The position numbers and the translations under genes are program-made. From assembly GCA_025354865.1 (NCBI GenBank), contig JANXMB010000148.1, positions 1 through 58,982 on the forward strand: 58,982 bases of DNA, read 5' to 3'. The notes under the pieces were generated by a model. The model was not told the DNA's origin. It did no database searches and saw nothing but the letters and a program-made list of their open reading frames with translations. Shown one piece after another: positions 11,003 through 42,133 of the stretch (position 1 is its first letter; each line of letters begins with the position of its first letter). The DNA is from Acetobacteraceae bacterium. GTDB taxonomy: Bacteria > Pseudomonadota > Alphaproteobacteria > Acetobacterales > Acetobacteraceae.

Positions 11003-13369
11003 ATGTTCCCTGGAATGAATGCCGCGCACTCCCCACACCTCGCCCGCTCGGCTTTGGCGGTTTCCGGCTTTTTCGCGCTGCTGACGGCCGTGTCGTGGGT
11101 CACCCTGGATCGGATCAAATATCTGTATCTGGCGGCGGGTCGCGCCAACCTTGCCGACATTTTGCTCAAAGATCCGACGGCGATGGACATCGGCCTTGTG
11201 CTGCTGACCGCACTGGCCGGCGCCGGCATTCTCGTCGTCGGGTTCCGCGATCGGGCGCTGATTCGGCTATGTGCGGGCGAACAGCCGTTCTGGCTCTACG
11301 TCGTCACGGCCGCTGTGCTGCTGTGGATGGGCCACGCCGTCCTGTCGCCCGGCTTGTTGGTAACCGGCGACGCCGGCACCCATGTCGCGCGCGTCAGCCA
11401 TCTGGCGGCGGCGCTGCGCGGCGGCGATTCGCTCTATTGGGACAACTATTTTTTCGGCGGCTCGACCCTGTTGCAGTTTACCGGTCCGGTTTTCCATTGG
11501 CTGGCCGCTGCAACGGCATTGGCGATCGGGGATGCAACAACGGCGATCAAGGTCGTCGCGTCCGTGGCCCGCGGGCTGGCAGCCTTCTTCGCCTATCGGC
11601 TGGTGCGCAAACTTGGCGCCGAGCGTCCGGCGGCGTGCCTGACGGCGCTGTTCTATGGCGGCGCTTTTCAAATGACCTACATGGAGGTCATTCGATCCTC
11701 CGTCCCCCAGTTGATCAATTTCGCCGCCATGCCAGCCGTGCTCTATGCCATCGAGTGTCTCTGGGCTCGCCCGGCCCTGCTGGGGGCACCGGCAGCGGGT
11801 TTGGCGCTGGCGGCGATCTGTCTAATCGGCAGCCACCAACCGACCGCGATGATCTTCGCCGGCTACGCCATGCTGTATATTGCGGCCCGCATCGCGCTGG
11901 ATCGCAAACGCCTGAACGTGCTGCCGGGGTTGGTCGGCGCGGGGGTGGCAGCGGGCCTAGGAAGCTGCTTCTTCCTCGTGCCCTTCGCGTTGGAGCGCGG
12001 GATGACGGCGGACAATTTCTCCACCGGCTCGCTGCTCGGTTTGGCACTGCCCGCAGTTTCCACCCTGCGCGACATCGTGGTGTGGGGCAGCGCCGGGACG
12101 GGCGCCGAATATGCCACCTATCTCGGACTGCCGATGTTGCTGTGCGCGACTTTGGGTGGGTTGCTGACGGTGGTGCGGCTGGAGTCGGCGCGGCTGCGGC
12201 AGGCATGGGCGCTGCTGTTCGGCCTCGCGCTGCTCAGTCTGTTCGTGCGCGGCGCCTATGTGCGGCACACCACCTTCACCTTCCTGTTCCTGTGTCTGGC
12301 CGCTGGACTAGGGGCCGAGGCAGTGTTCCGGATCGCACCGCAGCGGCGGATGCTGCCATTGCTGCTGTTCGCCGCGACCGTGCTGGACGCAGCACCGCTG
12401 GCGGTGCAGCCCTGGACCCGCAGCGATATGCAGGGGATCGTCGCCGCCGGGGACGATCTGGCCCGACGCGCGGCGGATAGCCGGGTGTTGGAGGTTTGGT
12501 ACCTGACCGGAAACCCCGATGTGTCGGTTGGCCCCGATAGCTCCCCTTTGGCATACGCGCGCCTGCAAATGCTGTCGGGGCCGCATAAGCAGGACGCCAC
12601 GCCCGCACATAATGCCAACGCCACCGTTCTGAAGGTCGCACAGGCGGATCTACATGCAACCGGCACGCTGTCCGACGCGACCCGCACCCTGTTGGCCAGC
12701 GCCAATATCGGATGGGTCGTCGGGACCGGTCCGACTACGCCCGGCCTGCCGGCAAGTTTCGGCGGCACGACCCCCGACCCGACCCTCGGCCCCTATTGGC
12801 GCATTGCTGAGGCGACGCCCTTCCTTGTATCGGGCCGGCTGGAGCAGGCCGACCGCCCGCCGTCCTTCGATGCGTCGCCTTTCTGGAACACGGACTTCGA
12901 CGCGGCCATCCCCGAAACAGCGGAAGCGTTGGACGCCGTGCGGCGGTTCGCAACGCGCATGGCTGCCGATCCGGGGCACCACCGAGCGGAGGTGCTGCTG
13001 GTGCCGAGGGTCCCGGCTGGCGAGGAGTGGCAACCGAAGGCCGAAGCCCCGCGCCAGGTGCGACAACTGGCATACAAGGTCGAGCCGGGCCGCGTCGCAT
13101 TGTCGCTGGAAACGGATCGGCCTGGCTTCGTCCGGCTGGTCCACCCGATGGCCGCCACGGTGTCGGTCACCCGCGATGGCGTTCGTGTGGCAGCGATCGC
13201 CGACGTCGGATCGGCGATCGTGCTGCCCATCCATGCTGGAACAAACACGATTGTGGTCACGGCGGCGCCGTCCTGGCTCCGTACCCTCTCCTTTTGGCTG
13301 TCTGCCGCCACGGTCGTGTTGCTCGCAGTGCGGCTCACCTTCATGCGCGCCGGCAACCCGCGTACGTAA
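11003..13369 (+). CDS. Large polytopic membrane protein, GT-C glycosyltransferase-like
   Basis: This 788-residue protein has about a dozen hydrophobic segments in its first 460 residues, a soluble region of some 300 residues and a final helix followed by RLTFMRAG. The first large loop has TGDAGTHVARVSHLAAALRGG and a WDNYFFGG segment, resembling the catalytic loop of GT-C-fold enzymes that use lipid-linked sugars. Proteins of this type are often annotated only as membrane proteins related to 6-pyruvoyl-tetrahydropterin synthase or YfhO. A role in surface glycan or protein glycosylation is inferred from architecture and the nearby ligase. An alternative ATG lies at 11015. Confidence 0.6.
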   Translation: MFPGMNAAHSPHLARSALAVSGFFALLTAVSWVTLDRIKYLYLAAGRANLADILLKDPTAMDIGLVLLTALAGAGILVVGFRDRALIRLCAGEQPFWLYVVTAAVLLWMGHAVLSPGLLVTGDAGTHVARVSHLAAALRGGDSLYWDNYFFGGSTLLQFTGPVFHWLAAATALAIGDATTAIKVVASVARGLAAFFAYRLVRKLGAERPAACLTALFYGGAFQMTYMEVIRSSVPQLINFAAMPAVLYAIECLWARPALLGAPAAGLALAAICLIGSHQPTAMIFAGYAMLYIAARIALDRKRLNVLPGLVGAGVAAGLGSCFFLVPFALERGMTADNFSTGSLLGLALPAVSTLRDIVVWGSAGTGAEYATYLGLPMLLCATLGGLLTVVRLESARLRQAWALLFGLALLSLFVRGAYVRHTTFTFLFLCLAAGLGAEAVFRIAPQRRMLPLLLFAATVLDAAPLAVQPWTRSDMQGIVAAGDDLARRAADSRVLEVWYLTGNPDVSVGPDSSPLAYARLQMLSGPHKQDATPAHNANATVLKVAQADLHATGTLSDATRTLLASANIGWVVGTGPTTPGLPASFGGTTPDPTLGPYWRIAEATPFLVSGRLEQADRPPSFDASPFWNTDFDAAIPETAEALDAVRRFATRMAADPGHHRAEVLLVPRVPAGEEWQPKAEAPRQVRQLAYKVEPGRVALSLETDRPGFVRLVHPMAATVSVTRDGVRVAAIADVGSAIVLPIHAGTNTIVVTAAPSWLRTLSFWLSAATVVLLAVRLTFMRAGNPRT

Positions 13370-22979: not shown

Positions 22980-23984
22980 ATGCTCAAGCTTGGCTACAAG
23001 GCGTCAGCCGAACAATTCGCACCGAAACCGCTGCTGGATTTTTCCGTGCTGGCCGAGCAGTGCGGATTCGATAGCGTGTTTATCAGCGATCACTTCCAGC
23101 CTTGGAAGCACACGGACGGGCATGCCCCCTCGGCTTTGGCCTGGATGGGCGCGCTGGGCGCCAGCACGTCCCGCATCGTGATGGGCACGTCGGTCCTGAC
23201 CCCGACCTTCCGCTACCACCCGTCGATCGTGGCGCAGGTGTTCGGCACTCTGGGCTCGATGTTTCCCGACCGGGTGATCCTGGGCGTCGGCACCGGCGAA
23301 GGCCTGAACGAGGTGCCGGCGATGGGCATCGTCTGGCCGGAAACCAAGGAACGCTTCGCCCGCATGCGGGAAGCCCTGACCCTGATCCGCAAACTGTGGT
23401 CCGAAGACCGGGTCAGCTTCGAAGGCGAGTTCTACCGCACCGAGAATGCAACCATCTACGACAAGCCGAAGACCCCGGTCCCCATCTACGTCGCCGGCGC
23501 CGGTCCGGCGGTGGCCAAATACGCCGGACGGATGGCCGAAGGCTTTATCTGCACGTCCGGCAAGGCGTGGAAACTGTACAACGAGACGTTGCTGCCCAAC
23601 GTGCAGGAAGGTCTGGGCCTGTCCAGCAAGCCGAAGCCGAACTACGACCGCATGATCGAGATGAAGGTGTCGTTCGATACCGACAAGGATCGCGCGTTGC
23701 AGGACACTCGGCACTGGGCGGCTCTGGCGTTGACCCCGGAAGAAAAAATGTCGGTGGAAGACCCGGTTGAGATGGAACGCCTCGCCGATGCGCTGCCGGT
23801 GGAACGCGCCGCGAGCCGGTGGATCGTGTCGAACGATCCCGACGAGCACATCGAGCGGATCAAGCCCTACATCGAGATGGGCTTCCGCCATCTGGTGTTC
23901 CACGCGCCCGGCCCGGATCAGGCCCGCTTCCTCAAGCTCTACGGGGAACAGGTCCTGCCGAAGCTCCGTGCTCGGTTCGATTGA
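22980..23984 (+). CDS. fgd: F420-dependent glucose-6-phosphate dehydrogenase-like LLM enzyme
   Basis: A 334-residue luciferase-like enzyme matching mycobacterial Fgd1 in length and motifs: KLGYKASAEQFAP, SDHFQPW, TSVLTPTFRY, VGTGE, AGAGPAVAKYAGR, FICTSGK, RWIV, HLVFHAPGPDQ. Residues equivalent to the Fgd1 active site (His40, Trp44, Glu109) are His38, Trp42 and Glu107. Those that hold the sugar phosphate (Lys198, Lys259, Arg283) are Lys195, Lys256 and Arg280. It should oxidise glucose-6-phosphate to 6-phosphogluconolactone with reduction of F420. The ATG at 22980 follows GGAGGGA. It heads the cofE-cofD-cofC run. A related sugar-phosphate specificity cannot be excluded. Confidence 0.85.
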   Translation: MLKLGYKASAEQFAPKPLLDFSVLAEQCGFDSVFISDHFQPWKHTDGHAPSALAWMGALGASTSRIVMGTSVLTPTFRYHPSIVAQVFGTLGSMFPDRVILGVGTGEGLNEVPAMGIVWPETKERFARMREALTLIRKLWSEDRVSFEGEFYRTENATIYDKPKTPVPIYVAGAGPAVAKYAGRMAEGFICTSGKAWKLYNETLLPNVQEGLGLSSKPKPNYDRMIEMKVSFDTDKDRALQDTRHWAALALTPEEKMSVEDPVEMERLADALPVERAASRWIVSNDPDEHIERIKPYIEMGFRHLVFHAPGPDQARFLKLYGEQVLPKLRARFD

Positions 23985-24055
23985 CCGCATCCGTGCTTCT
24001 CTCGCGCGTTCTGGCGGGCGACGGCCTGCCATTTGCGACCGGTCCGATGGCACCC

Positions 24056-24119
24056 CGGCGCGGCTGGGTCGGCTCGCGCCATCGGCGCGGCTGGGTCGAC
24101 TCGTGCCATCGGCGCGGCC
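24056..24119. repeat. 27-bp tandem repeat upstream of cofE
   Basis: Two 27-bp units (24056-24082 and 24083-24109, two mismatches) and a 10-base third partial copy lie between fgd and cofE. Each starts CGGCGCGGCTGGGTCG. They are in phase with an upstream extension of the cofE frame and would encode a nine-residue GSARAIGAA-type repeat, but the cofE homology starts later. Confidence 0.75.
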
Positions 24120-24134
24120 GCCCGGTCTGATCGG

Positions 24135-24902
24135 ATGGCCGCCCGCCTCGAACTTTTCGCGATCCCGGACTTCCCCATGGTGCAGGAGGGCGATCCCCTC
24201 CCGACCTTGATCGCCGATGGGTTGCGCCGCGCCGATCTGACACTGCAAGACGGCGATGTCGTCGTGTTGGCGCAGAAAATCGTGTCCAAATCCGAAGGGC
24301 GCAGCGTCGATCTGGCCACCGTCGAACCGACCGAAGCGGCGATCGCTCTGGCCGAGGAAGTGGGCAAAGACCCCCGCATCGTCCAGGTCGTGCTGTCGGA
24401 ATCGGTCAAGGTCGTGCGCAGCCGGCCCAACCTGATGATCATGCAGCACCGGCTGGGTTTCGTGATGGCCAATGCCGGCGTGGACCAATCCAACGTCGCC
24501 CCAACCGATGACGTGCAACGTGCGCTGCTGCTGCCGCTGGACCCCGACGGATCCGCCGAAACCATCCGATCAGCGTTGGCGGAGCGATTGGGGGTGAAAC
24601 TGGGGGTGGTGATCAGCGACAGTTTCGGCCGCCCCTGGCGCCGCGGCACGGCCGGGGTCGCGATCGGGTGCGCCGGGTTGCCGTCCTTCATCGACCTGCG
24701 CGGCCACCCCGATCTGTTCGGCCGCATCCTGGAAGTCAGCATTGTCGGTTTCGTCGATGAAATCGCCGCCGCCGCATCGCTGCTGCAAGGCCAGGCGGCC
24801 GAGGGCCAGCCGGTCGTCGTCGTTCGCGGTCTAACCTGGACCGCACCCGAGGCGCCGGTCAAAGAGCTGGTTCGCCCCCCCGAGGAGGATCTGTTCCAGT
24901 GA
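24135..24902 (+). CDS. cofE: Coenzyme F420-0:L-glutamate ligase
   Basis: A 255-residue CofE/FbiB-N domain enzyme that adds glutamate to F420-0 using GTP. DGDVVVLAQKIVSKSEGR near residue 35, VLSESVKVVRSR, the metal-binding GFVMANAGVDQSN and VVISDSFGRPWRRGTAGVAIG are all family signatures. It is a single-domain form without the C-terminal nitroreductase-like domain of mycobacterial FbiB, so F420-0 dehydration or reduction must be handled by another protein. I start it at the ATG at 24135, where homology begins. Its stop overlaps the cofD GTG start in a GTGA. Confidence 0.94.
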   Translation: MAARLELFAIPDFPMVQEGDPLPTLIADGLRRADLTLQDGDVVVLAQKIVSKSEGRSVDLATVEPTEAAIALAEEVGKDPRIVQVVLSESVKVVRSRPNLMIMQHRLGFVMANAGVDQSNVAPTDDVQRALLLPLDPDGSAETIRSALAERLGVKLGVVISDSFGRPWRRGTAGVAIGCAGLPSFIDLRGHPDLFGRILEVSIVGFVDEIAAAASLLQGQAAEGQPVVVVRGLTWTAPEAPVKELVRPPEEDLFQ

Positions 24903-25837
24903 TTATAGCCCTGTCCGGCGGGGTGGGCGGCGCGAAGCTTGCCCTCGGTCTGTCCCGCATTCTGCCGCCGGAAGAACTGATGGTGGTCGTCAATACCGGC
25001 GACGATTTCGAACATCTGGGGCTGTCCATCTCCCCCGACATCGACACCGTGACATACACCCTGTCGGGGTTGGCGAATCGGGAACTCGGCTGGGGTCGGC
25101 ACGACGAGACTTGGTCGTTCATGGAGACCATGGAAAGCCTGGGCGGGGAGACATGGTTTCGCCTCGGTGATCGCGATGTGGCGCTGCACGTGGTGCGCAC
25201 CCGCCGCCTGCGCGCCGGGGAAACGCTGTCGGCGGTCACCGCCGATCTGTGCAAACGCCTGGGCATCGGCCCGCGGGTGATACCGATGACCGACGACCGG
25301 GTGCGCACAAGGCTGCTGACCGACGCCGGTTGGCTCGATTTCCAAGACTATTTCGTCAACCGCAAATGCGAGCCGGTGGTGCGCGAACTGGCCTTCGAAG
25401 GCGCGGCGGAGGCGACACCGCATCCCGCATTCATGGCGGCTTTGGCCGATCCGGCGCTGCAAGCCGTGGTCATCTGCCCATCCAACCCATTCATCAGCGT
25501 CGAACCGATCCTGGCCATTCCCGGCGTGCGCGACGCACTCGCCAACTGCAAAGCCCCGATCATCGCCGTGTCCCCCATCATTGCCGGCCGAGCGGTCAAG
25601 GGGCCGACCGCGAAGATGATGACCGAACTCGGGATCGATCCGTCCGCCGGTTCGGTCGCGCACCGCTATGCCGACTTGCTCGACGGCTACGTCATCGACC
25701 ATGCCGACATGGCCGAAGTGGTGTCGATCGACGCCCGCGTCACCCTGGCACAGACCATGATGACCACGATCGAGGACCGGGAGGCCCTTGCCCGCACCGT
25801 GCTGGAGGCCGCCGCCGTGCTGCGGCGTCGCAAGTGA
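24899..25837 (+). CDS. cofD: 2-phospho-L-lactate transferase family protein
   Basis: A 312-residue CofD/FbiA enzyme that transfers a phospholactyl, phosphoenolpyruvyl or related group from the GDP- or GTP-activated donor to FO, giving F420-0 or its dehydro form. The N-terminal GGVGGAKLALGL loop, VNTGDDFEHLGLSISPDIDT, LGDRD, PMTDDRVRT, CPSNPFISVEPIL and SPIIAGRAVKGPTAKMM are all diagnostic. It starts with GTG overlapping cofE and ends in a GTGA overlapping cofC, which implies a tightly coupled operon. Confidence 0.96.
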   Translation: MIIALSGGVGGAKLALGLSRILPPEELMVVVNTGDDFEHLGLSISPDIDTVTYTLSGLANRELGWGRHDETWSFMETMESLGGETWFRLGDRDVALHVVRTRRLRAGETLSAVTADLCKRLGIGPRVIPMTDDRVRTRLLTDAGWLDFQDYFVNRKCEPVVRELAFEGAAEATPHPAFMAALADPALQAVVICPSNPFISVEPILAIPGVRDALANCKAPIIAVSPIIAGRAVKGPTAKMMTELGIDPSAGSVAHRYADLLDGYVIDHADMAEVVSIDARVTLAQTMMTTIEDREALARTVLEAAAVLRRRK

Positions 25838-26478
25838 CTCCTGTTTACGCCTGCGTGCCGGTGAAGGCGTTTACCGGCGCGAAATCCCGCCTGTCGGCAT
25901 TCCTGTCCCCCGCCCAACGCGAAACCCTGGCTGCGACGATGCTGGAAGACGTGCTGGCGGCCCTCGCCGGCGCGACCAGGCTGGCGGGCATTCTGGTGAA
26001 CACCGTGGACAGCCGAGCAGCGACGCTCGCGACGCGCTACGGCGCTCGGGTTGTCACCGAAGGGGCGCTCGACGGACATACCGGCGCAGTCATGGGCATG
26101 GCGCGGATCCTAGCGCGGGAAGATGCGGGCGCGTTGCTGACCATGCCGGGGGATATCCCGCGCGTGACTTCGGCCGAGGTCGATGCGGTTGTCTCCTCCT
26201 GTCTGGAAGCCCCGTCCTTCACCATCGTGCCGGCGCACGACGAACTCGGCTCGAACGCGGTCCTGTGCAATCCGGCCTTCGCGGTGCCGTTGCGTTTCGG
26301 CGACAATAGTTACTTCCCGCATCTGAGAGCCGCCCGCCGCTGCGGTATCGAGCCCACCATCGTGCGCGTGCCGGGGATCGGGCTGGACATCGACCACCCC
26401 GTGGATTTGCGGGCGTTCCTAAGGGCGCCGCGCAAGCCGACCCGGACCCTGACGCTGCTGGAAACGTTCGGGCTTTAG
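25834..26478 (+). CDS. cofC: Phospholactate/phosphoenolpyruvate guanylyltransferase (CofC/FbiD)
   Basis: A 214-residue nucleotidyltransferase that makes the activated donor for CofD. The N-terminus VYACVPVKAFTGAKSRLSAFLSPAQR matches the CofC signature; LLTMPGDIPRVT and DELGSNAVLCNP form the metal and GTP site, and FGDNSYFPHLRAA and LDIDHPVDL close the domain. The open frame extends far upstream, but homology starts at the GTG at 25834, overlapping cofD by 4 bases. Family members differ in using 2-phospholactate, phosphoenolpyruvate or 3-phosphoglycerate, and I cannot decide among them from sequence alone. Confidence 0.93.
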   Translation: MTPVYACVPVKAFTGAKSRLSAFLSPAQRETLAATMLEDVLAALAGATRLAGILVNTVDSRAATLATRYGARVVTEGALDGHTGAVMGMARILAREDAGALLTMPGDIPRVTSAEVDAVVSSCLEAPSFTIVPAHDELGSNAVLCNPAFAVPLRFGDNSYFPHLRAARRCGIEPTIVRVPGIGLDIDHPVDLRAFLRAPRKPTRTLTLLETFGL

Positions 26479-26529
26479 ACCATGATCGTTTGAGGTTGCA
26501 CGCGATCTCGGCGTTGGATCATGGTCTAA
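26475..26529. repeat. TTAGA...TCTAA hairpin between cofC and fbiC (copy C)
   Basis: A perfect 13-bp inverted repeat, TTAGACCATGATC at 26475-26487 and GATCATGGTCTAA at 26517-26529, with a 29-base loop. The left arm contains the cofC stop codon. It lies between the convergent cofC and fbiC genes, so it may act as a bidirectional terminator, although no T-run follows. The outer TTAGA/TCTAA matches copies A and B, while the inner stem differs. Confidence 0.75.
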
Positions 26530-26609
26530 GCCTTTGTTTGAGAGGGTGATTCACGCCCGAGGTTGAAGTCAACCTCAGGCGATCACGCTCTAGATCGCGA
26601 CGACCGGGC

Positions 26610-28970
26610 CTACTCCCCGACCAACACCTTGCGCGGCGGTGTCTGCACCACCGGCGCCAGTTCCGCGGCGCTGAAGGATACGACCTGCCGTTCGTTCGAC
26701 ACGCCGCCATACGCCGTGGAACGCTGCACCGGTTGGCGGCCGATGCCGTGGATCAGGCCCTCCATCGCCTCGGGCGGGAATTCCTGGCCGTGTTGCGTTC
26801 CGGCGGCGCGGCTGATGCTCTCGTTCATCAGCGTGCCACCCATATCGTTGGCGCCGGCGTTCAGGCACAAGGCCGCGCCCTCCGGCCCCATTTTCACCCA
26901 GGATGTCTGGATGTTGGGGATCAACGGATGCAGCGCAAGCCGAGCAACCGCGTGCATCAACACGGCTTCTCGGGTGGTGGGGCCTTTGCGGGCCATGCCG
27001 CGCAAGTACATCGGCGCTTCCATATGCACGAACGGCAGCGGAACGAATTCGGTAAAACCGCCGGTTTCGGCTTGCAGATCGCGCAACACCAGCAAATGCC
27101 GCGCCCAATTCAGCGGGGATTCAACATGCCCATACATAATCGTCGAGGTCGTCCGCAGCCCCAGCCCATGCGCCGCTCGGGCCACATCCACCCATTGTTG
27201 CGTATTGATTTTGTCCGGGCAGATGATCGCGCGAATTTCGTCGTCCAGGATTTCCGCTGCCGTGCCGGGCAACGTGCCCAATCCCGCGTCTTTCAACCGC
27301 GCGAGGAATTCCGTCAGGGTCAGGCCTAGCGTGGCCGCACCCTGGGTCACTTCCAACGGCGAGAAAGCGTGAATATGCATGTCCGGCACGGCGGCTTTGA
27401 TCGCCTTGCAAATGCCGATATACGTTTCGCCAGTGTAATCGGGATGGATGCCGCCTTGCAGGCAGACCTCGGTCGCACCGCGCTCCCACGCTTCTTCGGA
27501 GCGGCGCACAATCTCCGCCCAATCGAGGTCGTACGGCGTGCCGCGCAGGTTCTCGTGCGTTTTGCCTTTGGAGAACGCGCAGAATTTGCAGCGGTAGTAA
27601 CAAATGTTGGTATAGTTGATGTTGCGGTTGACAACGTAGCGCACCACGTCGCCGCTGACCGCCTGCCGGAGTTCGTCGGCAGCCGTGATGACCCGCTCGT
27701 AATCCGCGTCGCGGGCGGCGAACAGGCGGACGATTTCGGCCTCGTTCAGGCGTTGGCCTTGCATGGCCTTGGCGATGGCGCCTTCGACCGCCGGATCGAC
27801 CGAAGCCAGCCGCACCTGCCGCAGCTTCGGCGCGAAGGTCAGGCCGGGCGCCCAGTCGTCGTCGCGCGCCCAGCCCTCGGAGTCGGCGTGCTGCATGATG
27901 CGGGTGGCAATTTTCGGATGCGCCCACCGCGCGGTATCGGCCGCGTAGGACGGGTAGACGGGCAGCCGAGCGATCAGGATTTTGTCCATTTCGGCGGTGC
28001 GGTCGGCCAAGGCCTCCAGTTCCGGCCAGGGGGCTTCCGGATTCACATGATCGGGGGTGACCGGCGACACGCCGCCCCAATCGTCGATGCCGGCGCCGAT
28101 CAATTTCTGGTACACGCCGGGGGAGAGATTGGGCGGCGCCTGCACATGCACGTCCGCCGGCAGGATCGTGCGCGCGGCAGCGATGGTCCACAGCAGGTCG
28201 TCCAGCCCCGGCTCATCCGCGCCCGCCAGCTTGGTATCCTCTTTTGCCCTGAAGTTCTGGACGATGACTTCCTGGATATGCCCGTGCGCGGCGTGCAGAT
28301 CGCGGATGGCGAACAGGGCGTCCAGCCGCTCGTCCACCGTTTCCCCGATGCCGATCAGGATGCCGGTGGTGAAAGGCACCGCCAGCTCGCCGGCCAGCCG
28401 CAAGGTTTCCAGCCGCACCGCCGGCTTCTTGTCCGGCGATCCGAAATGCACCCCACCGGGCTCGCACAACCGGTCGGAGGTCGATTCCAACATCACGCCC
28501 TGGCTGGCCGAGACCTCCCGCAGGGAGGCGATTTCCTCCCGCGTCATCACGCCGGGATTGACGTGCGGCAACAGGGTCGTTTCCTTCAAAACAAGCGCAC
28601 ACATCGCGCGCAGATATTGAATGGTGGTTTCGTGTCCCAGCGCGGCCAGCGCGTCCCGCGCCGCGCGATGGCGCAATTCCGGTTTATCGCCCAGGGTGAA
28701 CAGCGCTTCGGTGCAGCCGGCCGCCTGCCCGGCGCGGGCGATGGCCAGCACTTCGTCGCCCGACAGATAGGCAGCGTGACCGGGGCGCGGATGTTCGGCG
28801 AAGGTGCAATAATGGCACACATCGCGGCACAGTTTCGTGAGCGGGATGAACACTTTCCGCGAATAGGAGATTGCCCGGCCATAGGCCGCATCGCGCCGCG
28901 CCGCAGCGGCGGCCATCAGCGTGGGCAGAGGAGTAGCGTGCAACCACGCCCGCAAATCGGAATCGTTCAT
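26610..28970 (-). CDS. fbiC: FO synthase, fused CofG-CofH radical SAM protein
   Basis: This 786-residue protein joins two radical SAM enzymes that make 7,8-didemethyl-8-hydroxy-5-deazariboflavin (FO) from tyrosine and a flavin-pathway intermediate. The N-terminal CofG half has CRDVCHYC (Cys48, Cys52, Cys55); the C-terminal CofH half has CYYRCKFC (Cys457, Cys461, Cys464), so both iron-sulfur clusters can form. The order is the same as in actinobacterial FbiC, slightly shorter than the mycobacterial form. It faces the cofEDC operon and its start overlaps the upstream LLM gene stop by 4 bases. Confidence 0.97.
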   Translation of the reverse strand: MNDSDLRAWLHATPLPTLMAAAAARRDAAYGRAISYSRKVFIPLTKLCRDVCHYCTFAEHPRPGHAAYLSGDEVLAIARAGQAAGCTEALFTLGDKPELRHRAARDALAALGHETTIQYLRAMCALVLKETTLLPHVNPGVMTREEIASLREVSASQGVMLESTSDRLCEPGGVHFGSPDKKPAVRLETLRLAGELAVPFTTGILIGIGETVDERLDALFAIRDLHAAHGHIQEVIVQNFRAKEDTKLAGADEPGLDDLLWTIAAARTILPADVHVQAPPNLSPGVYQKLIGAGIDDWGGVSPVTPDHVNPEAPWPELEALADRTAEMDKILIARLPVYPSYAADTARWAHPKIATRIMQHADSEGWARDDDWAPGLTFAPKLRQVRLASVDPAVEGAIAKAMQGQRLNEAEIVRLFAARDADYERVITAADELRQAVSGDVVRYVVNRNINYTNICYYRCKFCAFSKGKTHENLRGTPYDLDWAEIVRRSEEAWERGATEVCLQGGIHPDYTGETYIGICKAIKAAVPDMHIHAFSPLEVTQGAATLGLTLTEFLARLKDAGLGTLPGTAAEILDDEIRAIICPDKINTQQWVDVARAAHGLGLRTTSTIMYGHVESPLNWARHLLVLRDLQAETGGFTEFVPLPFVHMEAPMYLRGMARKGPTTREAVLMHAVARLALHPLIPNIQTSWVKMGPEGAALCLNAGANDMGGTLMNESISRAAGTQHGQEFPPEAMEGLIHGIGRQPVQRSTAYGGVSNERQVVSFSAAELAPVVQTPPRKVLVGE

Positions 28971-29947
28971 GATGCCTTCCGTATCACGTCTTCGGCGAAC
29001 CGCTCGGTCAATTCCATCGTCTGCTCGATCGTCGGGCGTTGCAGATAGAAAATCAGATTGCGTACGCCGATCACTTTTAGCGCAGCGACGTCTTCCAGCA
29101 TATCGTCCCCGCTGCCGCTGAACATCTGCCGTTTGCCGTCGGCGCCGATGCGCGCCTTCCAGCTTGGCGGCATGAACCAGACATAGGCGACATCGATGCT
29201 GCTGGGATCGCGCCCGGCTTTCTCGACCGCCCGATGCATGCGCCCGATGCCCGCCCCCAGCAATTCAGGCGTGTTCAGCAGCACCTGCGCATTGTTCGAG
29301 ACCGGGTACCAGCCATCGCCGAGTTCGGCCACGCGCCGCAGCGAGCGCGGGCTTTCGCCGCCTACCCAAATCGGCGGATGCGGTTTGGACACCGGCTTCG
29401 GCTCGAACACGACATTGGAGAAGGACGCGTATTTGCCGGCCATCTCCGGCCGATCCTGCGTCCACAGCGTCTTCCATGCCTTGATATACTCGTCGGTGAC
29501 CGCGCCGCGTTCGGCAAAGGGCGGGGTGCCGAGGGCGGCGAATTCCTCCGGCATCCAACCGGCACCGACACCGGCAATGATTCGACCGTCCGACAGCACA
29601 TCGGCGGTGGCGAACAGCTTCGCGGTCAGGACGGGCTGGCGATGCGGCACCACGATGACCGATGTCAGCAGCTTGATCCGCTGCGTGCAGCCGGCGAGGA
29701 ACGCCAGCACCGCCAGCGTGTCCATGCATTCGCCGGTCGGCGCGCCCGGCCAGACCCCATCGGCGGTATAGGGGTAGCGCACCCCGGTCGTCACGGGGGC
29801 GATCACATGGTCGGCAACCCCGAGAATGTCGTAGCCTAAAGCCTCCGCCCTTGTGCCAAGCGTCATGATGTTGGCGCGCGTCGTCATGCAGCCCCGTGGG
29901 CCGATATGGATGCCGAACTTCACCCGCTTGTCCTCCTCGGTTGCCAT
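28967..29947 (-). CDS. LLM-class F420-dependent oxidoreductase
   Basis: A 326-residue luciferase-like TIM-barrel protein. VKFGIHIGPRGCMTT begins the barrel; GVADHVIAPV, LTSVIVVPHRQPVLTAKLFATADVLSDGRI and GVGAGWMPEEF are typical of the F420-dependent subgroup, and PPIWVGGESPRSLRRVAELGDGWYP is the cofactor phosphate region. The substrate is unknown. It precedes fbiC with a 4-base overlap, so cofactor synthesis and use are cotranscribed. An in-frame start 12 bases upstream is possible; the gene is divergent from the next LLM gene. Confidence 0.88.
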   Translation of the reverse strand: MATEEDKRVKFGIHIGPRGCMTTRANIMTLGTRAEALGYDILGVADHVIAPVTTGVRYPYTADGVWPGAPTGECMDTLAVLAFLAGCTQRIKLLTSVIVVPHRQPVLTAKLFATADVLSDGRIIAGVGAGWMPEEFAALGTPPFAERGAVTDEYIKAWKTLWTQDRPEMAGKYASFSNVVFEPKPVSKPHPPIWVGGESPRSLRRVAELGDGWYPVSNNAQVLLNTPELLGAGIGRMHRAVEKAGRDPSSIDVAYVWFMPPSWKARIGADGKRQMFSGSGDDMLEDVAALKVIGVRNLIFYLQRPTIEQTMELTERFAEDVIRKAS

Positions 29948-30008
29948 TGGCGGTCGCATCGTGTGCTATCGGGGCCTACAGCGCAAACGCACACGGAAGG
30001 ATTTCATC

Positions 30009-30960
30009 ATGCAGATCGGTTGCAGCGCACCCAGCAGCGGACCCCTCATCGGCCCCGACAGCCTGACACGCATCGCCACCGAGGCCGAGATGCTCGGTTT
30101 TGATTACGTAACAGTCAGCGATCACGATGATCCCGACATCGATCGCTTCCAGGTATCCTTACTCGGATTCCGGCGAATTCCCCTCCGGCGCCGCAGCGGA
30201 TCGGTTGGAGCAGTTGACGGCGGCCACCTTCATCGCCGCCGTGACGTCGAAGTTGCGGATCGTGACCTCGGTCATGGTCGTGCCGCACCGCCCGGCCGTG
30301 TTGACGGCGAAAATCCTGGCGACTTTGGATGTCCTGTCCAAAGGCCGCATCACCCTGGGCATCGGCGCAGGCTGGTGCGAGGAAGAATTCATCGCCATTG
30401 GCGCCCCGCCCTTCGCCGAGCGTGGCGCGGTGACGGACGAATGGATGATGGTCTGCAAGGAACTGTGGACCTCCGACGCGCCCAAATTCGAGGGCAAGTA
30501 CGTCCAGTTCAAGGATGTCTTGTTCCCGCCCAAGCCGGTGCAGCAACCCATCCCCATCTGGGTCGGTGGCGAGAGCGGCCCGGCCCTGCGCCGCACCGCG
30601 AAATACGGCGACGCCTGGTACCCGATCGGTACCAACCCGCAATTCCCGATGGACACGCTGACCCGCTTCAAGGCCGGTGCCGCGAAGCTCGCGGGCCTGA
30701 CCGAGAAAGCCGGCCGCGACCCGAAGGCGGTGGGTCTCGCCTATCGCGTGTCGTCCAACCCCGAGGCGCAACCAAAGGGCAGCGTGGACGGGGAGCGCAA
30801 GCTTTTCACCGGCAGCGCCGCCGATTTCGCGGGCGATATCAAGGCTTTGGAGGATGTCGGCGTGACCAGCTTCGATTTCGGCCTGTTCGGACCGAGCCTG
30901 GATGCGACCGTGGACAATATGCGTCGGTTCCGGGACGACGTGATCGGGAAGCTGCGCTAA
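30009..30960 (+). pseudogene. LLM-class oxidoreductase gene broken by a frameshift
   Basis: Translation from the ATG at 30009 (behind GGAAGGA) gives the normal N-terminus MQIGCSAPSSGPLIGPDSL...VTVSDH, but homology then continues in another frame from 30127 (RYPYSDSGEFP onward) to the stop at 30960. The paralog at 31939 has an intact codon where this copy has a single G at 30126, so about two bases appear to be lost. The downstream part is otherwise complete, with GIGAGWCEEEF, PIPIWVGGESGPALRR and the C-terminal MRRFRDDVIGKLR. It is either a recent pseudogene or a sequencing error. Confidence 0.8.
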
Positions 30961-31152
30961 CCGACCTCCGGCGGATTGGATGGGTGCAAGATCGGATCGC
31001 CGGCGGGTACTCCCAAGGGGTCTCGTCGGCGAAACTTGTTGCCTATCGGCCTTCATCCGCGATAGAAACGAAACAGTCGGGATCTGCTCTCCGGACGGGC
31101 CATCGCGATAGGCGATATCTTGCTGTATCGTTCCAACACACAGGAGTGAAAG

Positions 31153-31830
31153 ATGGCCGGTTTCGCGGGCTTCGATTGTTTCGCTTACCCTGGTGCGGCG
31201 CAAATGGCGTGGCTGAAGGCGAACACCAATTTCGTCTGGTGCGGCTATTATCTGGCCCCGGCACCCAGCCACGGCGATAAAAGCTGGATGGGACAGCGCG
31301 CCGGGCTGGCGGCTGCGGGCTGGGGCATCGCCCCGGTTTATGTCGGGCAGCAACTCGCCGGACCCGGCAGCCACGCGGTGAACGGGCCGCAGGGCACTAC
31401 CGACGGCAACGCCGCCGCCGCGCTGATGGCCGCCGATGGATTTCCGCCCGGCAGTTGCGTCTATCTGGACCTGGAGGACGGGCCGCCTTTCGTCGCGCCC
31501 CGCACCGATTACACCGGCGCCTGGGTCGCCGCAGTCCGGTCCGCAGGCTTCCTTCCCGGTATTTACTGCTCGCACGGGTTTGCGGCCCAGGTGCAGGCGG
31601 CATATCCCGACGCTCGTGTCTGGGCTTACAAGGTCGCCACCACCCAACAGCATACAGTCCCCGGCACCGCCTTCCCCGACGGCGATCCGTCCGGTTCGGG
31701 GTTTCCAGGCGCCTTCGCATGGCAACTGGCGCAGAATTGCGTCCTCGCTCTGCCGGGTGCACCGATCCCCGCGCCGGTCGTCGATCTGGATAGCGCGGCG
31801 AACCCCGATCCCAGCGCGCCCAACGCCTGA
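31153..31830 (+). CDS. DUF1906 glycoside-hydrolase-like protein
   Basis: A 225-residue protein with the DUF1906 (Rv2525c-like) TIM-barrel fold related to GH25 lysozymes. GFAGFDCFAYPG at the start, FVWCGYYLAPAPSH, WGIAPVYVGQQ, CVYLDLEDG, GIYCSH and VWAYKV match the family pattern; the Asp and Glu of YLDLEDG are candidate catalytic residues. No signal peptide is seen. Such proteins are thought to act on cell-wall glycans, but activity is not proven. It has a good GGAG site and lies between two LLM paralogs. Confidence 0.8.
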   Translation: MAGFAGFDCFAYPGAAQMAWLKANTNFVWCGYYLAPAPSHGDKSWMGQRAGLAAAGWGIAPVYVGQQLAGPGSHAVNGPQGTTDGNAAAALMAADGFPPGSCVYLDLEDGPPFVAPRTDYTGAWVAAVRSAGFLPGIYCSHGFAAQVQAAYPDARVWAYKVATTQQHTVPGTAFPDGDPSGSGFPGAFAWQLAQNCVLALPGAPIPAPVVDLDSAANPDPSAPNA

Positions 31831-31938: not shown

Positions 31939-32904
31939 GTGCAGATCGGATTCAACGCCCCAACTTCCGGCCCGTTGATCGAGCCGGATTCGTTATCGCG
32001 CATCGTCGTTGAAGGCGAGGAACTCGGTTTCGATTACGTGACCATCAGCGACCACATCATGGTGCCGCGCAATCTGGACTCCAAATATCCCTATACCGAC
32101 ACGGGAGAATTCCCGGCCGGCACCCAGGCCGCGTGGCTCGACCAGCTCGCCACCACCGCCTGGATCGCGGCCATGACGAAGAAACTACGTTTCGTGCTCT
32201 CGGTCATGGTCGTGCCCTATCGGCCGGCGGTGCTGACGGCGAAACTGTTGTCCACCATCGATTTTCTGTCCAAGGGCCGCTTGACCTGCGGCATCGGCGT
32301 CGGCTGGTGCAAGGAAGAATTCGAGGCCTTGTCCTCCCCGCCGTTCGATGAGCGTGGGGCCGTCACCGACGAATGGATGGCGGCGTGCATGGAACTCTGG
32401 ACTGCCGAAGCGCCCAAATTCGCCGGCAAATACACTAAATTCGACGACGTGCAGTTCACCCCGAAACCGGCGCAGAAACCCATCCCCATCTGGGTCGGCG
32501 GCGAGAGCGGGCCGGCGCTGCGACGAACGGTGAAATATGCGCATGGCTGGTACCCCGTCGGCACCAATCCGCAATTTCCGATGAACACGATCGGGCGCTT
32601 CAAGAAGGGTATCGAGCGGTTTCGCGGGTTCGCCGAAAAAGCCGGCCGCGATCCGTCGGAAATCGCCCTGGCCCTGCGCGTGCTGGCCGCACCGGGACAG
32701 AAGCCGCGCGGCACGATCGACGGCGAGCCCGAGATGTTCACCGGCAGCGACGCCGACTGGGTTGCCGATATCCGGGCGCTGGAAGCCCTCGGGGTCTCGG
32801 CGGTGGATGTCCGCCTGTTCGGCCGCACCCGCGATGAGGTCGTCGATCAGACGATCGGCAACATGCGCCGCTTCAAGGACGGCGTGCTGGACCGCCTACG
32901 CTGA
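31939..32904 (+). CDS. LLM-class F420-dependent oxidoreductase
   Basis: A 321-residue protein of the same subgroup as the frameshifted gene at 30009, sharing the opening MQIG..AP.SGPLI.PDSL, the RPAVLTAK...LSKGR region, PIPIWVGGESGPALRRT and the C-terminal GNMRRFKDGVLDRLR. It starts at a GTG after GGGAG. The two are tandem duplicates separated by the DUF1906 gene. Substrate unknown; cofactor F420 is inferred from subfamily and from the F420 genes nearby. The stop lies within the start region of the FAH-family gene. Confidence 0.88.
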   Translation: MQIGFNAPTSGPLIEPDSLSRIVVEGEELGFDYVTISDHIMVPRNLDSKYPYTDTGEFPAGTQAAWLDQLATTAWIAAMTKKLRFVLSVMVVPYRPAVLTAKLLSTIDFLSKGRLTCGIGVGWCKEEFEALSSPPFDERGAVTDEWMAACMELWTAEAPKFAGKYTKFDDVQFTPKPAQKPIPIWVGGESGPALRRTVKYAHGWYPVGTNPQFPMNTIGRFKKGIERFRGFAEKAGRDPSEIALALRVLAAPGQKPRGTIDGEPEMFTGSDADWVADIRALEALGVSAVDVRLFGRTRDEVVDQTIGNMRRFKDGVLDRLR

Positions 32905-36621: not shown

Positions 36622-37818
36622 ATGACCCAAGCCCTGACCGGCATTCGCGTTATCGACATGACGCACAATCAGGCAGGCCCCGCCTGCGCGCAGATCCTCG
36701 GCTTCCTCGGCGCCGATGTGATCAAATTGGAGGAACCGAAAGGCGGCGACGTCGCCCGCACCAACATGCGCGACAAAGCCGACAGCGACAGCCTGTTCTT
36801 CCTGATCCTGAACGCCAACAAGAAGAGCCTGACGCTCAATCTGAAAACCGACGAAGGCAAGGCGCTGTTCAAGAAAGTCATTGCCGAGTCCGACGTGCTA
36901 CTGGAGAATTTCGGTCCCGGCGCGCTGGATCGCCTCGGGCTGGGCTACGACGTGTTGAAAGAACTCAATCCGCGTCTGATCTATTCCACCATCAAAGGCT
37001 TCGGCACCTACGGCCCCTATAGCGGGTTCAAAAGCTTCGAGCCGATCGCCCAAGCCATGGGCGGCGCGATGTGCGTCACCGGCACCGCCGACGGGCCGCC
37101 GATGTTCAACTTCCCGGCCATCGGCGACAGCGGCACCGGCATGCATATGGCGATCGGCATCCTGGCCGCGCTGCAACAACGCCACACCACCGGCAAAGGC
37201 CAGCACGTCGAAGTGTCGATGCAGGATGCGGTGGTCAACCTCATCCGAGTTTCGTTGCGCGACCATCAACGCTACGGCCACCCGCCGACCCGATCCGGCA
37301 ATCAGTTGGGTCGAACCGTACCCGGCACGACCTTTCGCTGCGCGCCGGGCGGACCCAACGACTACGTCTACATCTTCTGCCAACCGCAAATGTGGAAAGC
37401 CTTCGTCGGTGTGCTCGGCCAACCCGACCTGCCGACCGATCCCCGCTTCGCAACCCCCGAAGCCCGCTGGGACAACAAAGCCGCGCTGGAGGACATCGTC
37501 ACCGCCTGGACCATGCAACGATCCAAGCACGATGTCATGAAATCGATGGGCGATGCCGGCGTGCCCTGCGGCGCATGCCTCGACACCGGGGAGGTCCTGG
37601 CCGATCCGCATCTGCGCGAACGCGAGATGGTGCTGGACATCGATTACCCGACACGCGGGGTCTACCAAACCGTGGGCTCGCCGATCAAATTGTCGGATTC
37701 GCCGGTCACCGTCACCCGCCCGCCGCTGCTGGGCGAACACACGGCCGCTTTGCTGGGGGAATTGTGCGGGGTTTCGCCGGACGACGCCCAGGCGCTTAAG
37801 GCGAAAGGCGTGGTTTGA
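36622..37818 (+). CDS. CaiB/BaiF CoA-transferase, formyl-CoA transferase-like
   Basis: A 398-residue class III CoA transferase. The opening LTGIRVIDMTHNQAGPACAQILGFLGADVIKLE and the nucleophile region AIGDSGTGMHMAIGILAAL (catalytic aspartate near residue 170) resemble formyl-CoA:oxalate CoA-transferase, as do GQHVEVSMQDAVVNLIR and the terminal PLLGEHT. No oxalyl-CoA decarboxylase is adjacent, so the acid exchanged may not be oxalate. A strong GGAGG site precedes the ATG. It follows the MFS gene by 28 bases and likely shares its transcript. Confidence 0.88.
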   Translation: MTQALTGIRVIDMTHNQAGPACAQILGFLGADVIKLEEPKGGDVARTNMRDKADSDSLFFLILNANKKSLTLNLKTDEGKALFKKVIAESDVLLENFGPGALDRLGLGYDVLKELNPRLIYSTIKGFGTYGPYSGFKSFEPIAQAMGGAMCVTGTADGPPMFNFPAIGDSGTGMHMAIGILAALQQRHTTGKGQHVEVSMQDAVVNLIRVSLRDHQRYGHPPTRSGNQLGRTVPGTTFRCAPGGPNDYVYIFCQPQMWKAFVGVLGQPDLPTDPRFATPEARWDNKAALEDIVTAWTMQRSKHDVMKSMGDAGVPCGACLDTGEVLADPHLREREMVLDIDYPTRGVYQTVGSPIKLSDSPVTVTRPPLLGEHTAALLGELCGVSPDDAQALKAKGVV

Positions 37819-37867: not shown

Positions 37868-39217
37868 ATGACCGTCACCGCCGAACTGTGCGAAAAAATC
37901 GTTGCGCAGACATGGGATTCGCTGACACCGGACGCCATCGCCGCCGCGCGCCGGCTGGTGCTGGACGGCATATCCATCGCCCTCGCCGGGACCGAGGAAG
38001 AGGCGATGCAAATCCTGGGCGCGCATTATCGCAATTTCGGCGCCCGCAACGACTGCACCGCGATCGGCCACGGCTTCCGCACCGCACCGACACTGGCCGC
38101 CGCGCTGAACGGGGCGGCGATGCATGTGCTGGATTTCGAGCCGATGTGGACACCGTCCAACCACGCCTTGTCCACCACTCTGCCCGCCATCCTGGCGCTG
38201 GCCGAAACCCGCGATGTGTCGGGACGCGAAGTCATTACGGCCTTGGTCAAAGGGATCGAGCTGCAAGGATGGATCCGCCACGCCGGGCATCTTTACGAAA
38301 ACGGCAGCATCCGCTTCCACCCACCGGCTTTGGTCGGCCCGATGGGATCGGCCGTGGCGGCGGGCCATGTCCTCGGCCTTACCGCCCCGCAACTGGCCTA
38401 TGCGCTCGGCATGGCATCGTCGCGCTGCGGCGGCATGGCGGCCAATATCGGAACCATGACGAAATCGACCCATTGCGGCAACGCCGCTTCGTCCGGGTTG
38501 GAATGCGCGATGCTCGCCGCTCACGGGTTCGATGCGAATCCAGAACCGTTCGAGGCATTCAACGGCTACGGAAAAATGATGTTCGGCGATACGTTCGAGC
38601 CGCGCGACCTACTGAATTTCGGCGCCCCCTGGCGGATCGTTTCGCCCGGCTATGCGATCAAGATGTTCCCCAGCCAGTTCGGCACCCATTTCGCCATCAC
38701 CGCCGGGTTGCAACTTCGCCCGCAGATCCCCGATCCCGAGAAAATCGCCAAGGTCGTGCTGAAAACTCCGGTCATGCCGTACGTGAACCGCCCGCTTCCC
38801 GACACGGGACTGGCAGGCAAATTCAGCCTGCAATACACATTCGCCAGCGGCCTTTTGCGCGGGGAGGTCAAGATCGATACCTTCACCGACGCCGAAGTCG
38901 AAAAACCCGACATGGCCGCGCTGCTCGGCAAGATCGAAATGAATATGACCCGGGAGATACCGGCTCGTTTCGATCGCATGTGGATCGAGGCGGATGTCGA
39001 AATGACCGACGGCACCAAGCTGCACACACGTTGCAACGGGCCGAAAGGCATCTGGGGCACGCCGCCGATCTCGGCCGAGGATCATCTGGTCAAAATTCGC
39101 GACTGCCTGTCCCGCCGCCTGCCCCACGACAAGGCGGAACAACTGATCGCCCTGGCGCTCAGGATCGACGACCTGGACGCGGCGGGGGTGCGGCAGATGG
39201 TGTCCCTCGCAATGTAA
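37868..39217 (+). CDS. MmgE/PrpD family protein
   Basis: A 449-residue protein of the 2-methylcitrate dehydratase/iminodisuccinate epimerase superfamily. Features are RRLVLDGISIALAG near the N-terminus, ALNGAAMHVLDFEPMWT, PAILALAE, a helical core with GTMTKSTHCGNAASSGLECAMLAAHGF and a late KFSLQYTFASGLL segment. The usual HALDYDD is changed to HVLDFEP. I prefer the ATG at 37868 to the TTG at 37856. It is convergent with and overlaps the DMT transporter gene by 59 bases. Substrate unknown. Confidence 0.85.
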   Translation: MTVTAELCEKIVAQTWDSLTPDAIAAARRLVLDGISIALAGTEEEAMQILGAHYRNFGARNDCTAIGHGFRTAPTLAAALNGAAMHVLDFEPMWTPSNHALSTTLPAILALAETRDVSGREVITALVKGIELQGWIRHAGHLYENGSIRFHPPALVGPMGSAVAAGHVLGLTAPQLAYALGMASSRCGGMAANIGTMTKSTHCGNAASSGLECAMLAAHGFDANPEPFEAFNGYGKMMFGDTFEPRDLLNFGAPWRIVSPGYAIKMFPSQFGTHFAITAGLQLRPQIPDPEKIAKVVLKTPVMPYVNRPLPDTGLAGKFSLQYTFASGLLRGEVKIDTFTDAEVEKPDMAALLGKIEMNMTREIPARFDRMWIEADVEMTDGTKLHTRCNGPKGIWGTPPISAEDHLVKIRDCLSRRLPHDKAEQLIALALRIDDLDAAGVRQMVSLAM

Positions 39218-40581: not shown

Positions 40582-40738
40582 TTTCGTTTACCTTCCGACT
40601 CCGGGACTGCGGCACTCGGTATGATCGTTTCCAAAACCGATGCGCGTCGTGTCGAACGCCGTTTTGTCGTTGGGGCGCCTCCCCTTCCCCAATCCTCCCC
40701 CCAGCGCCAAACTCCCCCGAAATGCCGGAGACGCCACG

Positions 40739-42133
40739 ATGACCATCGCACGCCAGATCGCCGATCGTATCCACGCCCTGCGCTTCGAGGATATTTCGCC
40801 CGAGGCCTTGGAATGGACCCGACATGCGTTCACCGACACCGTCGGCTGCGCCCTAGCCGGCACCGTCGATGCAGGGCCGCGCATTCTGATGTCCGTCCCC
40901 GGCGTGGCCGAGGCGCCGGGGCCGGCGCTGATCTATGCCAGCAACATCCGGACATCGGTCCTCGACGCCGCCTTGGTCAACGGCACTGCGTCGCATGCCC
41001 TCGACTACGACGATGTTGCGGCATCGATGGGCGGCCATCCCTCCGCCGTGCTCGTCGCGCCCGCCATTGCGCTGGGGGAAATGACGCAGGCCACCGGCCG
41101 CGATCTGGCCTTGGCCTACGTCGTCGGTTTCGAAACGGAGTGCCGCATCGGGCGCGGCGTCAATTTCCACCATTACGAGAAAGGCTGGCACCCGACCGCG
41201 ACCCTGGGCATTTTCGGCACCGTCGCGGCTGCGGCCCGCTTGCTCGATCTGTCGCCGGATATCACCGCTGTCGCGCTGGGGATGGCGGCGTCGTTCGCCT
41301 CCGGGCTCAAGGCGAATTTCGGCACCATGACAAAGCCGCTGCATGTCGGCCACACCGTGCGCAGCGGGCTCTTTGCGGCGCTGATGGCACAGCGGGGCTA
41401 CACCGCGAACCCCGGCGCGTTCGAACATGGGCACGGCTTCCTGGATGTATTCAACGGGGCCGGCACCTACGATGTCGATAAGATGCTAGCCGACTGGTAC
41501 GCGCCGCTGGAGGCCGGGGGTTACGGCGATCCCGGCCTAAAACCCTACCCCTGCTGCGGGTCCACCCATGCCTCCATTGCGCGGATGATCGACCTCGCCA
41601 CCGCGCACGACCTTACGCCCGACCGGGTTGCCCGGATCGAGGTCATGCCCCACGCCCGCCGGCTGCCGCATACCGACAATCCCGACCCGCAGACGCCCCT
41701 CGGCGCCAAGTTCTCCATCCAATATTGCATTGCCCGAGCACTGGACGAACGCGCGGTGACGCTGCGGCATTTCGAGGAGGATGCCCAATTCGACCCGGCG
41801 ATTCGGTCGATCATGGCGCGGGTCGAAGCCAAGCCGCACCCCGAAATCTCCGCCGACGGGCGGTATCCCTGGGGGGCCGAGGTGATCGTGCACACCACCG
41901 ACGGGCAGCGTTTGGCCTCCCGCCTGGACGACTACCCAAGTCGCGGGCCGGCGGGCGTGCCGATGACGCGGGACGAGTTGTGGACCAAGTTTTCCGATTG
42001 CGGCCAATTGGCACTGCCCGCCGCGCAGGTCGCGCCGCTGTTCGAGAAGCTGATGGCGATCGAAACAATCCCGTCCACCGCCGAGCTGACCCATTTGCTG
42101 GAGGCACCGGCCGTCCGTTCGCGGGCCGCTTGA
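40739..42133 (+). CDS. MmgE/PrpD family protein
   Basis: A second, more canonical member of this superfamily, 464 residues from the ATG at 40739. HAFTDTVGCALAGT, NGTASHALDYDDVAASMGGHPSAVLVAP (with the HALDYDD catalytic region), GWHPTATLGIFGTVAAAARLL, FGTMTKPLHVGHTVRSGLFAALMA and KPYPCCGSTHASIA are all hallmarks. Members act as dehydratases or epimerases on tricarboxylic or related acids. It is the only plus-strand gene in its immediate vicinity; an upstream in-frame start at 40640 gives an N-terminal extension without homology. Confidence 0.9.
   Translation: MTIARQIADRIHALRFEDISPEALEWTRHAFTDTVGCALAGTVDAGPRILMSVPGVAEAPGPALIYASNIRTSVLDAALVNGTASHALDYDDVAASMGGHPSAVLVAPAIALGEMTQATGRDLALAYVVGFETECRIGRGVNFHHYEKGWHPTATLGIFGTVAAAARLLDLSPDITAVALGMAASFASGLKANFGTMTKPLHVGHTVRSGLFAALMAQRGYTANPGAFEHGHGFLDVFNGAGTYDVDKMLADWYAPLEAGGYGDPGLKPYPCCGSTHASIARMIDLATAHDLTPDRVARIEVMPHARRLPHTDNPDPQTPLGAKFSIQYCIARALDERAVTLRHFEEDAQFDPAIRSIMARVEAKPHPEISADGRYPWGAEVIVHTTDGQRLASRLDDYPSRGPAGVPMTRDELWTKFSDCGQLALPAAQVAPLFEKLMAIETIPSTAELTHLLEAPAVRSRAA

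Follow-up and report, generated by a model that had tools for sequence, protein, structure and literature searches.

Analysis of a 58,982-nucleotide stretch of Acetobacteraceae DNA (the window; contig JANXMB010000148.1 of assembly GCA_025354865.1) revealed five linked genes for coenzyme F420 (fgd, cofE, cofD, cofC and fbiC). They very probably represent a conserved alphaproteobacterial module in which F420 is synthesised by FbiC, CofC, CofD and CofE and reduced by Fgd with glucose-6-phosphate (G6P), while LLM oxidoreductases use the reduced form (F420H2). In the proposed pathway, FbiC would make FO, CofC and CofD would add a three-carbon phospho-acid through a guanylylated intermediate, and CofE would add the glutamate tail. 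Fgd would reduce F420 to F420H2 with G6P, perhaps with other sugar-6-phosphates too, and the F420H2 would be spent by LLM oxidoreductases both next to the module and dispersed in the genome. Direct observation covers which genes are present and their conserved order, the families they belong to, their conserved sites, the tree positions of Fgd, FbiC and CofD, and the failure to detect Fno or FbiE in this draft genome; the catalytic steps, the identity of the sugar, the proteins that take up the electrons, and the making of F420 in the cell at all, are predictions from homology. The window corresponds to contig C6 of the draft genome, which measures 4.76 Mb and has a completeness of 99.25% and a contamination of 3.56%.

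Gene content and order of the module

The fgd gene (22980-23984, + strand) encoded a predicted F420-dependent glucose-6-phosphate (sugar-6-phosphate) dehydrogenase of 334 residues, whose match to TIGR03554 (474.5 bits; cut-off 420) spanned residues 2-330 and whose best matches among solved structures were 5lxe and 3b4y (FGD1). It was separated from cofE, without overlap, by 150 bases that included a 27-base tandem repeat of 2.3 copies (24056-24118, no strand). The cofE gene (24135-24902, +) encoded a stand-alone F420-0 gamma-glutamyl ligase of 255 residues, which scored 276.9 bits with TIGR01916 (cut-off 180.65) and 258.4 bits with a second CofE model, NF009809, under the cut-off of 274; its solved relatives were 7uld and 2phn. 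The next two genes, cofD (24899-25837, +; 312 residues, putative phospho-carboxylate transferase to FO; TIGR01819, 311.6 bits, cut-off 257.45; solved relatives 3c3d and 6uvx) and cofC (25834-26478, +; 214 residues, putative guanylyltransferase; TIGR03552, 125.9 bits, cut-off 105), both started with GTG, and these starts overlapped the stops of cofE and cofD, respectively, as GTGA. Convergent with cofC, fbiC (26610-28970, - strand) encoded a fused CofG-CofH FO synthase of 786 residues (NF006687, 1141 bits, cut-off 1018). In the profile search, each of the five proteins exceeded an NCBIfam family cut-off, and the synthesis set of FO synthase with CofC, CofD and CofE homologues was complete by this family test. 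The open reading frames (ORFs) and NCBIfam scores confirmed the four genes, the GTGA overlaps and the convergent fused fbiC described in the first-pass annotation, which had been made from the sequence alone.

The arrangement was common in relatives. An Fgd above the cut-off was found in 38 of 150 genomes from the family of the window and in 9 of 385 from its class (both counts include the window's own genome); among Actinomycetes the figure was 36 of 197, and in a Chloroflexota phylum sample 22 of 201. A scan of named genomes gave at least 576 Fgd relatives; the counts of named loci given here refer to the best 80, of which 70 reached far enough for the gene order to be judged. In these 70 loci, fgd was followed by cofE in 56, by cofE-cofD in 45 and by cofE-cofD-cofC in 42. 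Sequence was sufficient to place fbiC in 33 of the 42 loci, where it was convergent in 17 and co-directional in 4. The sets of Bradyrhizobium, Reyranella, Dankookia, Caldovatus and other alphaproteobacteria shared the order fgd-cofE-cofD-cofC with the window, with a convergent fbiC as in the window or with too little sequence to show whether fbiC follows, but differed in sequence and in the flanking LLM genes. Novelty of an Fgd-linked module in a proteobacterium was not supported: the presence of Fgd in alphaproteobacterial F420 producers is stated in the available part of a 2021 review (PMC8498797), and the window module is a further example of a known alphaproteobacterial kind. A literature search on F420 with Acetobacteraceae and cofE found no paper.

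Some loci showed other features. Two from Ancylobacter (L071 and L077) carried cofE after fgd and no matched cofD, and a cofC-like stretch (39-41%) was located at the usual start of cofD. More than one ORF per neighbourhood had fgd as its best match in L064, L075, L091 and L095, possibly a second Fgd-like or LLM copy. Proteobacterial-like Fgd and F420 genes were also found in L101 (labelled Planctomycetota) and L098 (labelled Bordetella parapertussis), the labels of which may be wrong.

Fgd and the source of electrons

The first-pass annotation had named six residues of Mycobacterium tuberculosis Fgd1, assigning His40, Trp44 and Glu109 to catalysis and Lys198, Lys259 and Arg283 to phosphate binding. 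Alignment with M. tuberculosis FGD1 showed that all six were present in the window Fgd, as H38, W42, E107, K195, K256 and R280, respectively, and this six-residue site was invariant across nine alphaproteobacterial Fgds. Among 165 non-outgroup Fgds from proteobacteria, actinobacteria, Chloroflexota and one genome labelled Planctomycetota, the equivalents of Lys198, Lys259, Arg283, His40 and Glu109 were found in all 165 and that of Trp44 in 164, counts that partly reflect selection because most of these proteins had entered the set by passing the Fgd model. Of the five outgroup LLM proteins, none had Lys198, two had Lys259 and three had Arg283. As an argument for G6P, the presence of the residues held, but their use as a marker of specificity did not, since the phosphate residues are alike in G6P-specific F420-dependent glucose-6-phosphate dehydrogenases (FGDs) and in broader F420-dependent sugar-6-phosphate dehydrogenases (FSDs), according to the accessible part of PMC6279831.

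Because these residues do not separate Fgd from Fsd, G6P was better supported by relatives in which fgd lay beside genes of 6-phosphogluconolactonase (pgl) or 6-phosphogluconate dehydrogenase (gnd). The 80 named loci were scanned for these genes with one query each, taken from L103. In four gammaproteobacterial metagenome-assembled genomes, pgl was located directly 5' of fgd (L103 8747-12019, L105 8305-10999, L113 9281-10999 and L116 2877-4503), and the Fgds of these four were 67-70% identical to that of the window. The gnd gene followed 3' of fgd in L103, and a gnd-type gene was located 5' of pgl in L105. Both pgl and gnd were within 5 kb of fgd in L101 and L106 and about 7 kb from it in L095, and on a plasmid of R. 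jostii, fgd was placed between genes annotated as gnd and pgi. The lactonases of L101, L103, L105, L106, L113 and L116 all scored above the cut-off of TIGR01198, as did the gnd products tested (L101, L103 and L105) above one for 6-phosphogluconate dehydrogenase. The pgl-fgd-gnd arrangements of gammaproteobacteria look like operons, and they hint that an oxidative pentose phosphate path linked to F420 exists in bacteria other than actinobacteria. In the draft genome of the window, no match to npdG/Fno (TIGR01915) was found at E <= 0.001, and Fgd was therefore the only known F420-reducing dehydrogenase seen there. The first-pass proposal of a linked G6P-type reductase as the electron source was thus borne out as far as the linkage of Fgd and the intact sugar-phosphate site are concerned; judged from the genes, G6P would be the likeliest electron source for F420 reduction in the module, one to which the enzyme may not be strictly specific.

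Several points weigh against the proposed function of the module. To our knowledge, the organism of the window has no reported F420 measurement and no enzyme assay. Only six loci among the 80 named ones showed linkage to pgl, none of them from Acetobacteraceae; neither pgl nor gnd was detected with the L103 queries in the Acetobacteraceae among these loci, and no pgl was found at the window's own fgd. The genome also carried an NADP-type zwf (576.6 bits), and Fgd is therefore not the sole route from G6P; on the 20 kb stretch that carries zwf, no pgl or gnd was found at E 1e-5 with gammaproteobacterial queries. For the last reduction of F420, the best hit of the FbiB C-terminal model in the window genome scored 23.7 bits (cut-off 249.55) and no stand-alone FbiE was detected; with no match to a dehydro-F420 reductase, one step of the route lacks an assigned enzyme if phosphoenolpyruvate (PEP) is the precursor. 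The available part of PMC8498797 gives Fno for alphaproteobacteria too, whereas the window genome showed none. Finally, position 177 has been described as a marker, with Gly in FGD and Ser in FSD (PMC6279831, accessible in part), and the window Fgd has Ala174 at this position, neither the Gly of strict FGDs nor the Ser of FSDs. Strict G6P specificity is therefore not assured, and the enzyme was filed as FGD/FSD-type, not as a strict FGD, because of Ala174.

The mycobacterial and Rhodococcus FGD1 (TIGR03554; 3b4y and 5lxe) resembled the window Fgd in full-length homology, in the six residues and in the score above the equivalog cut-off. It differed in carrying Gly177, in forming a separate clade and in identity (57% for 3b4y), and the window fgd, unlike FGD1, was linked to synthesis genes. 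The first-pass annotation had called this Fgd unusually close to mycobacterial Fgd1; its 57.3% identity to the M. tuberculosis protein proved ordinary for the proteobacterial members compared. In the Fgd tree (91 rows), the mycobacterial type formed its own clade (support 100/99), and a second actinobacterial clade was separate (100/100). The window Fgd was nearer to this second clade (67-70% identity to five named members from Herbiconiux and Nakamurella, and 60-67% to five unnamed ones) than to the FGD1 clade (55-61%).

It is possible, if rather doubtful, that the window dehydrogenase is a broad sugar-6-phosphate enzyme like the FSDs instead of a G6P-specific FGD. With the FSDs (PMC6279831, in part), it shares the phosphate residues and a non-Gly residue at position 177, although this is Ser in FSD and Ala in the window. 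Ala occupied the position in 80 of the 84 members of a mainly alphaproteobacterial set (Ser in 3 and Gly in 1) and in four of the six pgl-linked Fgds (Gly in one and Ser in one), while the ten rows of the second actinobacterial clade, to which the window Fgd was nearer, had Ser in seven, Ala in two and Gly in one. Herbiconiux carried both kinds of Fgd, two copies of the mycobacterial type and one of the second-clade type, a pattern like the co-occurrence of FGD and FSD in Micrococcales described in the same source. However, the equation of the second clade with FSD is an inference, since the characterised FSD sequences were not among the tree rows, G6P is also the phosphorylated sugar that FSDs use best according to the table in PMC6279831 (in part), and the pgl and gnd linkage seen in relatives favours G6P.

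The finishing step of F420 synthesis

The window CofE was a stand-alone protein without the C-terminal reductase domain of FbiB. Such a CofE is found in most F420 producers outside mycobacteria, according to the available part of PMC7253369, and a stand-alone FbiE occurs in several F420 producers (PMC8498797, in part). The PEP route of actinobacteria and Thermomicrobia shares homologues of FbiC, CofC/FbiD, CofD/FbiA and CofE with the window but includes FbiB or FbiE, neither of which was detected here as a fused domain or a stand-alone protein. FbiE-like matches were compared over 36 chosen genomes, comprising 25 Fgd-bearing genomes of the same class, 6 Actinomycetes and 5 Chloroflexota. None of the 25 same-class genomes had a match above 63 bits, and six of them had matches of 44-63 bits. 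In the controls, matches of 272-336 bits, over the cut-off, were obtained in five of the six Actinomycetes and none in the sixth (Herbiconiux), and all five Chloroflexota had matches of 143-149 bits, under the cut-off of 249.55, from a gene within 1 kb of cofD. The missing FbiE match is weak evidence, because an unrelated or diverged reductase would escape the model. A candidate beside zwf (C31, 23.4 bits) was not accepted; its 285-residue ORF resembled a general nitroreductase by eye, a judgement made with no family search.

Alignment of the window CofC to 7p97 and 6bwg placed Gly156 at the site diagnostic for 3-phosphoglycerate (3PG), position 162, where Ser or Thr marks the 3PG-F420 route of the Mycetohabitans type (PMC8764529, available in part). 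The residue was Gly in all 53 proteobacterial CofCs examined. Although the best-scoring solved CofC was the Mycetohabitans 3PG enzyme, the 3PG-F420 route was ruled out by Gly156, and the pocket of the window CofC is, by its residues, of the 2-phospho-L-lactate (2PL)/PEP type. At the site of the PEP-contacting Leu92 of M. tuberculosis FbiD, the window CofC had His82. His was found at this site in 43 of the 53 proteobacterial CofCs and in 3 of 9 from Chloroflexota, and it may mean nothing because the site varies in Chloroflexota too. The CofCs of Paracoccus denitrificans and Oligotropha carboxidovorans were reported to use 2PL best in vitro, in an assay that cannot tell 2PL from PEP in vivo (PMC8764529, in part).

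Tentatively, alphaproteobacteria with this module may finish F420 by a non-actinobacterial route, whether by a 2-phospho-L-lactate pathway in bacteria, by a dehydro-F420 reductase of an unrelated kind or by using dehydro-F420 itself. The finishing step is the part worth specialist attention, as it would bear on where the lactyl group of their F420 comes from, should these bacteria make ordinary F420 by a path that lacks FbiE. The cluster, with the remaining known genes packed into 6 kb, lends itself to such a test. In L051, L053 and L054, an ORF of about 286 residues located 5' of fgd appeared by eye to belong to the isocitrate lyase/PEP mutase superfamily.

Origin of the module and neighbouring genes

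The nearest named Fgds were those of uncultured Acetobacteraceae (L042, 92%; L043, 90%) and of Rhodospirillales bacterium 69-11 (L044, 87%), and identities to the sampled Chloroflexota Fgds were 59-69%. In the Fgd tree, the window protein grouped with Acetobacteraceae (support 99/94 for four rows and 100/96 for five rows), nested in a group of 19 alphaproteobacterial rows (94/83). The deep order allowed either monophyly, as neither that of the proteobacterial Fgds (p-AU, the approximately unbiased test, 0.606) nor that of the actinobacterial ones (p-AU 0.567) was rejected. Quick unrooted trees were made of FbiC (46 rows, only four of them Chloroflexota) and CofD (63 rows), and in both the window proteins grouped with Acetobacteraceae and other proteobacteria. 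A single branch set the actinobacterial rows apart in each tree, supported at 100 for CofD (21 rows) and 98 for FbiC (16 rows); a divergent actinobacterial FbiC (L247) formed a long branch beside this division.

The first-pass annotation had offered transfer of the whole module from actinobacteria or a shared ancient set as its origin. The latter, here taken as an old bacterial set that spread among proteobacteria and Chloroflexota while actinobacteria branch off distantly, has nearly an even chance of being correct. For FbiC and CofD, the branch that sets off the actinobacteria leaves the Chloroflexota together with the proteobacteria, but these trees were unrooted and quick, with few Chloroflexota FbiC rows, and the deep Fgd order fits either monophyly. 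An ancient actinobacterial event would fit as well, given an unsettled deep order and trees of FbiC and CofD that have no root. A stepwise horizontal spread of F420 genes, partly from actinobacteria, has been described (PMC8498797, in part). A recent move of the whole module from an actinobacterium is very improbable, even though the available part of PMC8764529 holds horizontal transfer from actinobacteria most likely for the F420 genes of Gram-negatives, since all three window proteins placed in trees cluster among Acetobacteraceae and other proteobacteria, mycobacterial-type Fgds form a clade of their own, the actinobacterial CofD and FbiC are set apart by well-supported branches, and the window FbiC is nearer to the four Chloroflexota fusions (56-65% identity) than to actinobacterial FbiCs (mostly 46-48%, with three at 40-42% and one at 53%).

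The conserved neighbours of the module whose sequences were read were LLM proteins by eye. In the window, three LLM-class oxidoreductase genes exceeded the TIGR03619 cut-off of 166.9 bits. The first (28967-29959, - strand; 243.7 bits), a predicted F420 user, overlapped the start of fbiC, and the third was located at 31939-32904 (+; 210.4 bits). The frame of the second (30127-30960, +; 207.8 bits, profile positions 28-243) opened inside the N-terminal part of the family, and an LLM-like N-terminal stretch was found upstream in another frame (inside ORF 29853-31280), which points either to a broken reading frame or to an error in the sequence. In the genome as a whole, TIGR03557, a wider LLM model, had 66 matches, of which only the window Fgd exceeded the cut-off.

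Neighbours were clustered from ORFs picked by composition, which missed some known cof genes. A conserved non-LLM partner gene was not found, as no neighbour cluster had more than five loci within 2.5 kb, apart from a six-locus cluster that was probably an antisense ORF; the five-locus clusters looked by eye like a short-chain dehydrogenase and an alpha/beta hydrolase. Near the module of L088, a protein of about 181 residues resembled the pyridoxamine-oxidase fold (FDOR-type) by eye, with relatives in L117 and L120. Elsewhere in the window, an ORF of 788 residues (11003-13369, +) was coding-like in its composition and gave no Pfam hit at E 1e-8. A class III CoA-transferase gene (36622-37818, +) was followed by MmgE/PrpD-family genes (37868-39217 and 40640-42133, +), possibly forming a catabolic set.

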